Part shown: positions 28,533-31,681 of the stretch, one piece after another
Numbering within the stretch: the first letter of the stretch is position 1
Layout: every line of letters starts with the position of its first letter
NCBI GenBank assembly: GCA_945861855.1
Contig: CAMAWG010000003.1
Coordinates: 1-64,000 of the forward strand
From: Rhodoplanes serenus
GTDB taxonomy: Bacteria; Pseudomonadota; Alphaproteobacteria; Rhizobiales; Xanthobacteraceae
Length of the DNA: 64,000 bases
Direction: 5' to 3'
Notes under the pieces: model-generated
Told to the model about the DNA's origin: nothing
Seen by the model: the letters and a program-made list of their open reading frames with translations, nothing else
Databases searched by the model: none
Translations under genes and position numbers: made by a program

Positions 28533-29186
28533 TCACCCTTGCGGCGTCGCGATCGGAGCGTCGACGAAGACCTTGTACTGCTGCACGCGGGGCTTTGCCT
28601 TGTCTTCCTCGTTGACGAACTGGAACGAGCTTTTGCCGATCAGGGTGCGCGGCAGCACCATGACACGGATGAAGCGGCTCGGCCGGTCCATCGCCGCCTG
28701 CGCGAACACCGGATCGGAGCCGGTCTCGTACCAGGCGCTGCCGGGGCCGTAGGAGGTCGAGCGGCCGTGGGTGTCGATGCGGATGCCGCCGTCGAGCAGG
28801 CAGCGGATGCCGGGGCCCCAATGCTTGTGCAGGAACGCGCAGCCGCCGGGCGGGAACGTGACGCTGTCGCCGCGCAACAGCAACTCGCCCTGCGGAATGG
28901 TATCGAGCGCGGCGGCTATTTTCTCCTGCGAGCGGAGTGCGCCCTTGAGCGGCGCGCTGCTGCTGTTGGACGCCGCCATTTCGAAGCGCCACAGCGTGAC
29001 GCCGTCCTTGCCGGCGGTGAGCGAACACGCGCCCTCGCCGTGCCAGGCCTCGCCGTCATTGAACGTCTTGCCGTCGATTGAGACCGCGCCATGCACCACG
29101 AAGATCATGCGGGCGAGCGCGGGCAATGACAGCGGGGCGGCGGCGCCGCTGATGGAATCCTCGTAGAGCCGCATCATCGGAATCAT
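28533..29186 (-). CDS. cupin-like hypothetical protein
   Basis: two cupin-like halves (VVHGAVSIDGKTFNDGEAW, FPPGGCAFLHKHWGPGIRCLLDGGIRID). Confidence 0.65.
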   Translation of the reverse strand: MIPMMRLYEDSISGAAAPLSLPALARMIFVVHGAVSIDGKTFNDGEAWHGEGACSLTAGKDGVTLWRFEMAASNSSSAPLKGALRSQEKIAAALDTIPQGELLLRGDSVTFPPGGCAFLHKHWGPGIRCLLDGGIRIDTHGRSTSYGPGSAWYETGSDPVFAQAAMDRPSRFIRVMVLPRTLIGKSSFQFVNEEDKAKPRVQQYKVFVDAPIATPQG

Positions 29187-29248: not shown

Positions 29249-29647
29249 TCACGGCTGCCATGCAGCGGCGATGTCGGTCTGTGAAAAATCGTCGCCTTTG
29301 AACAGCAGCGGCGCGTTGCGGGATTTGGCCAGCGCGTAGGAAAAGCAATCGGCGAGATTGAGCGATGCGCGGTGGCGGCCCTTGCCGTAGCGGTCGAAGG
29401 CATCAACTGCCGCGTTCGTCACCATCCCATCCACCGGTGCTACTTCGATGGCGAAGGTCCGGAGCAGTTCTTCCACCGTTGACCTGGCGACAGTGCGCGA
29501 GCGCCCGGTCAAAACCATCACGGTTTCGAGATAGGTTACGCTCGAGCAGACCGCTTCATCGCTCCGATCGAGGACGTCGACAAGGAAATCCCGCTCGTTC
29601 TCGCGGGCCGCAATGGCGAACATCGCCGACGTATCCACGACGATCAT
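29249..29647 (-). CDS. vapC: type II toxin VapC (PIN domain)
   Basis: MIVVDTSAMFAIAARENE, NLADCFSYALAK PIN-domain acidic residues. Confidence 0.88.
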   Translation of the reverse strand: MIVVDTSAMFAIAARENERDFLVDVLDRSDEAVCSSVTYLETVMVLTGRSRTVARSTVEELLRTFAIEVAPVDGMVTNAAVDAFDRYGKGRHRASLNLADCFSYALAKSRNAPLLFKGDDFSQTDIAAAWQP

Positions 29648-29901
29648 TTCGGCACGCCGTTCTCGTCATAGCCGATGATCTCATCGGGAGAGCGCGGATC
29701 GTCGACTGGCAAGGAATCGAAATAGGCGAGCAGTTCGGCAAGCCTCTTGCGATCCACGCGACCTTTGCGCTGCGGCGGTCCGAGCTTGGCAAGACGTTCG
29801 TCCACCGCGCGCTCGACCGCATCGGTGATCGTTTCGCCGGTCCGGCCAGCGAGTTCCCGAATCTTGGCCTCGGCTTCAGGTTTCTTGATAAAAACGCCCA
29901 T
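29644..29901 (-). CDS. vapB: type II antitoxin (VapB, Rv0623/PSK transcription factor-like)
   Basis: MGVFIKKPEAEAKIRELAGRTGETITDAVERAVDERL; ATGA overlap with vapC. Confidence 0.85.
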   Translation of the reverse strand: MGVFIKKPEAEAKIRELAGRTGETITDAVERAVDERLAKLGPPQRKGRVDRKRLAELLAYFDSLPVDDPRSPDEIIGYDENGVPK

Positions 29902-31345: not shown

Positions 31346-31681
31346 ATGAAAATCCTGGTGGCGTTGCTATTGTTTGTTGCAGGCTTGACGGCCCCCGCCG
31401 CCGCCGGCGAGTACACGCTGGAAAACCGGCCGCAGGTCTCTTTCAAGAACGGGCCGGTCCACGTCTCCCCCTATCCGCAAGGCGTCCGCGCCGCCTCGGT
31501 CTGGAATTCCGACGCCTGCTGGCGCGATTGCAAATCGTCCTGCGCCTGGAAAATGGACTATTGCGTCGGCTCCGCCAGTCCGGACGCCTGCCGCCCGCAT
31601 CTCGACGCCTGCGACCGGTCCTGCCAGCGCTCCTGCCGCAGCCCGTGGAGCGGCCCGCTGCTCGGCTTCATCGATTTCTAG
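31346..31681 (+). CDS. small secreted cysteine-rich protein (8 Cys)
   Basis: signal peptide MKILVALLLFVAGLTAPAAA then CX3CX3CX6CX8CX6CX3CX3C. Confidence 0.75.
   Translation: MKILVALLLFVAGLTAPAAAGEYTLENRPQVSFKNGPVHVSPYPQGVRAASVWNSDACWRDCKSSCAWKMDYCVGSASPDACRPHLDACDRSCQRSCRSPWSGPLLGFIDF

Follow-up and report, generated by a model that had tools for sequence, protein, structure and literature searches.

Sequence and modelling evidence for a probable cysteine-stapled helical hairpin in a family of exported-type proteins from Xanthobacteraceae

The window analysed here, a stretch of 64,000 nucleotides from Rhodoplanes serenus, carries a small gene whose product, judged by its sequence, belongs to a new protein family. 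Its members have an exported-type precursor and two fixed cysteine arms, and in their alignment cysteines are lost only in mirror pairs. We consider it very probable that the mature protein folds as a two-helix hairpin with the connectivity C1-C8, C2-C7, C3-C6 and C4-C5. The complete explanation, that of an exported periplasmic or secreted antiparallel hairpin with a nested disulfide ladder that presents conserved segments to an envelope partner, seems fairly probable to us, and its functional part, a scaffold or binding role, is put forward tentatively.

The open reading frame at 31346-31681 (+, stop included) starts with ATG and encodes a precursor of 111 amino acids that reads MKILVALLLFVAGLTAPAAA/GEYTLENRPQVSFKNGPVHVSPYPQGVRAASVWNSDACWRDCKSSCAWKMDYCVGSASPDACRPHLDACDRSCQRSCRSPWSGPLLGFIDF, where the slash marks the cleavage position as we read it from the A-x-A motif. 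A predicted Sec-type signal peptide of 20 amino acids (31346-31405, +), with the hydrophobic stretch ILVALLLFVAGL and cleavage after AAA, is followed by a conserved P-[FY]-P...R-[AS]-x-x-V-W segment at the start of helix 1 (31469-31504, +). Arm 1 with the pattern CX3CX3CX6C (C1-C4; 31517-31564, +) is assigned by the model to helix 1 and arm 2 with CX6CX3CX3C (C5-C8; 31589-31636, +) to helix 2, and the C4-C5 loop between them (31565-31588, +) holds the predicted turn. The protein ends in a conserved GGPLL-like tail, here SGPLLGFIDF (31652-31678, +), which like the helix 1 segment was recognised in alignments A1 and A2. The eight cysteine codons within 31517-31636 have the spacing 3,3,6,8,6,3,3, exactly as the earlier note had described it. 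Its emphasis on a spacing that is identical in both directions applies to the window protein, whereas the full palindrome is not conserved across the family, in which the length of the central loop varies. The signal peptide proposed there proved to be a family feature: by a simple rule, a strongly hydrophobic stretch precedes the mature part in 47 of the 50 members and an A-x-A-type site is present in 46. Among the exceptions are one gene truncated at the edge of its contig and some proteins whose start was probably placed too far in.

Within the genus the dN/dS of the gene is 0.26-0.79, as expected of a genuine gene that is subject to selection. The eight-cysteine frame is not a product of chance, since both the reading frame and the cysteine arms are preserved across 50 proteins and the DNA pattern is specific to this gene: in a phylum-wide sample of 389 genomes, the exact eight-codon pattern matched otherwise only low-complexity CTG-type repeats or stretches containing stop codons. 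In viral contigs the matches listed were repeats and one Gly/Cys-rich repeat protein. A possible paralogue in the same genome was rejected, as the CX3CX3CX6C motif on contig C177 lies in a frame of 33 codons with neither signal peptide nor second arm.

A profile built from nine members found matches in 52 out of 399 genomes of Xanthobacteraceae, the family to which the window belongs, representing seven genera by tally. Two matches, a spurious frame (G275) and a frame-disrupted copy (G257), were left out, giving 50 analysed proteins with the window protein included. In the latter genome (G257:C7:733-1046, locus L079) the homologue is split across two overlapping reading frames, reflecting either a frameshift of recent origin or a fault in the assembly. 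The gene is near-universal in the two main genera (9/11 and 37/44 genomes), where it is single-copy and keeps its position inside each genus. A broader profile gave no convincing relative in 398 genomes of the order or 289 of the class, although very distant relatives may escape the initial step of the profile search, which acts as a filter. Two further searches around outlying members added no relatives. Marginal matches (G693, G701, G080, G423, G071, G275 and a second match in G010) were rejected as distant homologues because they lacked the cysteine frame or lay in the frames of other genes. Among the samples searched, the homologues appear confined to a small number of genera within a single alphaproteobacterial family. 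A viral or plasmid origin was also rejected, as tblastn found no relative in IMG/VR or in plasmids and PHROGs gave no match.

No accepted family of Pfam, NCBIfam or PHROGs matched the window protein. Weak, cysteine-driven matches were seen in some members, such as PF10868 with a best E-value of 5e-4, which does not amount to membership of a curated family, and TIGR04117 scored 11.9 bits against the window protein with a cut-off of 50. The protein matched no PDB chain by sequence, and a fold search of the PDB returned nothing at an E-value of 0.001 or better. In the open-access literature searched, we came across no account of a bacterial hairpin of this type with four rungs and mirror symmetry.

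The connectivity was read from the pattern of cysteine loss. The arms 3,3,6 and 6,3,3 are fixed in every one of the 50 members, with C4 of G331 shifted by one inserted residue, and extra residues are tolerated solely in the C4-C5 loop. Most members have 8 residues there, whereas five have 9, three have 17-18 and a single one has about 23. All members keep C2 and C7, which served as alignment anchors. Thirty-nine proteins have all eight cysteines and the remaining 11 have six of them, each without exactly one mirror pair: C3 and C6 are absent in seven (G009, G010, G339, G302, G335, G306 and G066), C1 and C8 in two (G003 and G346) and C4 and C5 in two (G350 and G209). Neither a single loss nor the loss of a non-mirror pair was observed. 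The number of cysteines in the mature protein is even in 50/50, including G063, the sole member with extra cysteines, which has two more. The earlier note had regarded homologues without the cysteine pattern as evidence against its proposal; they do occur, and because both mirror partners are always lost they strengthen the idea of a hairpin.

On a maximum-likelihood tree built with the eight cysteine sites masked, these absences correspond to eight independent pair losses (five of C3+C6, two of C1+C8 and one of C4+C5), and the well-supported branches alone force six. If random pairs were lost, the chance that all events would hit mirror pairs is 1.7e-7 for eight events and 8.5e-6 for six. A published method derives connectivity from the tandem loss of bonded cysteines (PMC4498770). 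A single one of the 105 possible pairings fits the losses, namely C1-C8, C2-C7, C3-C6 and C4-C5, the C2-C7 bond being assigned solely by elimination. It is scarcely credible that the protein is simply rich in cysteine, has no defined fold and shows the mirror spacing by coincidence: the central loop varies in length and the complete palindrome is not conserved, but both arms are fixed family-wide and cysteines were lost solely as mirror pairs in eight events.

Structure modelling points to the same hairpin. On a helical wheel the four cysteines of each arm fall on one face, and 3% of the possible spacings cluster as tightly. AlphaFold2, run on the window protein together with seven relatives, places helices at mature residues 27-56 (C1-C4) and 59-78 (C5-C8) with a turn at 57-58, coinciding with the mirror centre of all four cysteine pairs at 57.5. 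The same layout was predicted for L034, which is without C3 and C6: helices 18-35 and 40-60 around a mirror centre at 38.5. The confidence of the models is moderate, with mean pLDDT values of 67 and 74 and about 75-88 in the hairpin; they derive from eight sequences, and the two runs share most of the alignment and are not independent. The models have the two helices joined by a turn that a disulfide-stapled antiparallel helical hairpin would have, a term that we use for a general kind of structure and not for a homology family, and the nesting of the cross-helix disulfides is predicted from evolution, that is from the mirror-pair losses and the unique compatible pairing. On the combined evidence of the losses, the single pairing and the modelled helices and turn, the disulfide-stapled antiparallel hairpin proposed in the earlier note is well supported.

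As to how the protein may act, we infer that Sec carries the precursor across the inner membrane and that thiol oxidation in the periplasm would close the disulfide ladder; a DsbB homologue is encoded. Rigidity may be the purpose of the bonds, and the rigid hairpin would present two conserved elements, the R-[AS]-x-x-V-W segment near the beginning of helix 1 and the GGPLL tail, to a putative envelope partner.

Genome context indicated no partner or process at the loci of the window's genus and the second genus. The gene is flanked on the left by the divergent purD and on the right by an MFS transporter gene, an order kept in the eight other gene-carrying genomes of the genus. In the second genus rimO adjoins the homologue, with or without a gene for an AspH-type hydroxylase (PF05118). 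This gene, found at L081 7311-8273 and at matching loci, is divergent to the homologue and next to rimO. As a functional partner the hydroxylase was rejected: most members of the second genus have it as their divergent neighbour, but several homologues without it abut rimO and the window's genus has purD at that place, so it is probably a matter of neighbourhood only. A scan for promoters and terminators returned nothing.

Other features of the locus were also noted. Beside purD lies a VapBC-like toxin-antitoxin pair (29252-29901, -; PSK_trans_fac antitoxin and PIN domain), which is shared by just two of the eight syntenic loci, L023 and L024, indicating that the pair comes and goes at this site. 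Also beside purD, a protein of 217 amino acids (28533-29186, -) has no Pfam match and shows 68-88% identity within the genus. Between the MFS gene and xseA there is an orphan gene for an ABC transporter substrate-binding protein (PF04392; 33056-34042, +), for which tblastn gave no match at any of the eight syntenic loci.

The main biological rival is a secreted bioactive peptide that would act as an antimicrobial, an inhibitor or a signal and would employ the stapled hairpin in the way of alpha-hairpinins, and we regard it as unlikely. The predicted fold resembles plant defence hairpins (PMC7191063) and divergence is fairly fast, with dN/dS up to 0.79, but the calculated charge is near neutral in most members and the gene is single-copy and near-universal in two genera, which argues against a classic cationic antimicrobial peptide. 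Its position is conserved inside each genus, and no export or immunity genes were recognised adjoining it.

The main chemical rival, a thiolate metal-binding protein such as a small Cu(I) chaperone or storage protein whose two-helix cysteines would hold metal as in Csp, appears more doubtful still. Like Csp1-type copper storage proteins, the window protein is predicted to be exported and helical with several cysteines, here in many CX3C steps, on its helices, and pairwise loss could reflect two-cysteine sites or the loss of a shared metal site. However, the exported Csp1-type proteins are four-helix bundles that use Tat export and hold 13 Cu(I) by thiols (PMC7558416), whereas the window protein has a Sec-type signal without a twin-arginine motif. 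No His or Met is conserved family-wide in the alignments, no copper family was matched in Pfam, and no copper genes adjoin the gene at the loci of the two genera. The two cysteines of each lost pair always belong to opposite helices and occupy mirror positions, as would be needed for cross-links. The compact metal site that the earlier note had offered as an alternative is less likely than the stapled hairpin.

The predicted disulfide ladder is of interest in several respects. The family represents a clean natural experiment in which eight independent double losses point to a single pairing from sequence alone, three of the four rungs having been seen lost, and it provides an apparently undescribed four-rung cysteine-stapled helical hairpin in the bacterial periplasm. 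Natural six-cysteine variants exist for three rungs and could be used for comparing stability. The hairpin could further be used as a rigid mini-protein scaffold, and the family as a test substrate for the closure of nested bonds by Dsb.

Several known groups of proteins share parts of this design. Snakin/GASA proteins likewise have a signal peptide, a CX3CX3C start (CX3CX2RC) and a helix-turn-helix (PMC7711543; PMC7956376), but they are plant proteins whose GASA domain has twelve cysteines and a different second arm, whereas the window protein has eight and no Pfam match. Turgencins, viscotoxins and crambin resemble the layout predicted for the window family in their fully nested C1-C6, C2-C5 and C3-C4 bonds and helix-loop-helix-like shape (PMC7024374). 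They differ from it in being short eukaryotic peptides with three bonds and another spacing.

The cysteines of twin-CX3C and twin-CX9C proteins are paired in a nested manner. As predicted for the window family, these mitochondrial proteins (small Tim and CHCH, respectively) are helical hairpins with mirror-placed cysteines that are oxidised in a periplasm-related compartment (PMC5203823), but they have two bonds, are synthesised in the cytosol and are imported by Mia40. The spacing 3,3,6,8,6,3,3 contains no two CX9C motifs, the eight cysteines exceed the two CX3C motifs that are the only cysteines of small Tim proteins, and neither a Pfam profile nor sequence links the window protein to either group. 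The likeness to twin-CX3C proteins noted earlier thus stands as an analogy of design and not as a relationship. A more far-reaching reading would make the new family, with its four-rung mirror ladder, a periplasmic chaperone-like or envelope-assembly factor, which in alphaproteobacteria would independently parallel the stapled hairpins that occupy the mitochondrial intermembrane space; we consider this improbable at present.

Plant alpha-hairpinins are antiparallel helix-loop-helix peptides with one CX3C motif per helix and nested C1-C4 and C2-C3 bonds (PMC7191063), and together with similar helical toxins of scorpions and cone snails they share the helix-loop-helix, the CX3C per helix and the nested pairing with the design predicted for the window family. 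They are eukaryotic peptides of 22-40 amino acids with four cysteines and two bonds, whereas the window family is bacterial and has eight cysteines, four predicted bonds, CX3CX3CX6C arms and long conserved flanks. With six to ten cysteines and extra CX6C and CX3C steps, its members depart from the alpha-hairpinin motif XnCX3CXnCX3CXn (PMC7191063), and no alpha-hairpinin among the PDB chains matched the window protein by sequence. As cysteine number and spacing differ and no profile matches, the family belongs neither to the alpha-hairpinins nor to the mitochondrial twin-CX3C proteins; by analogy, its design may be described as that of either one extended to four rungs.
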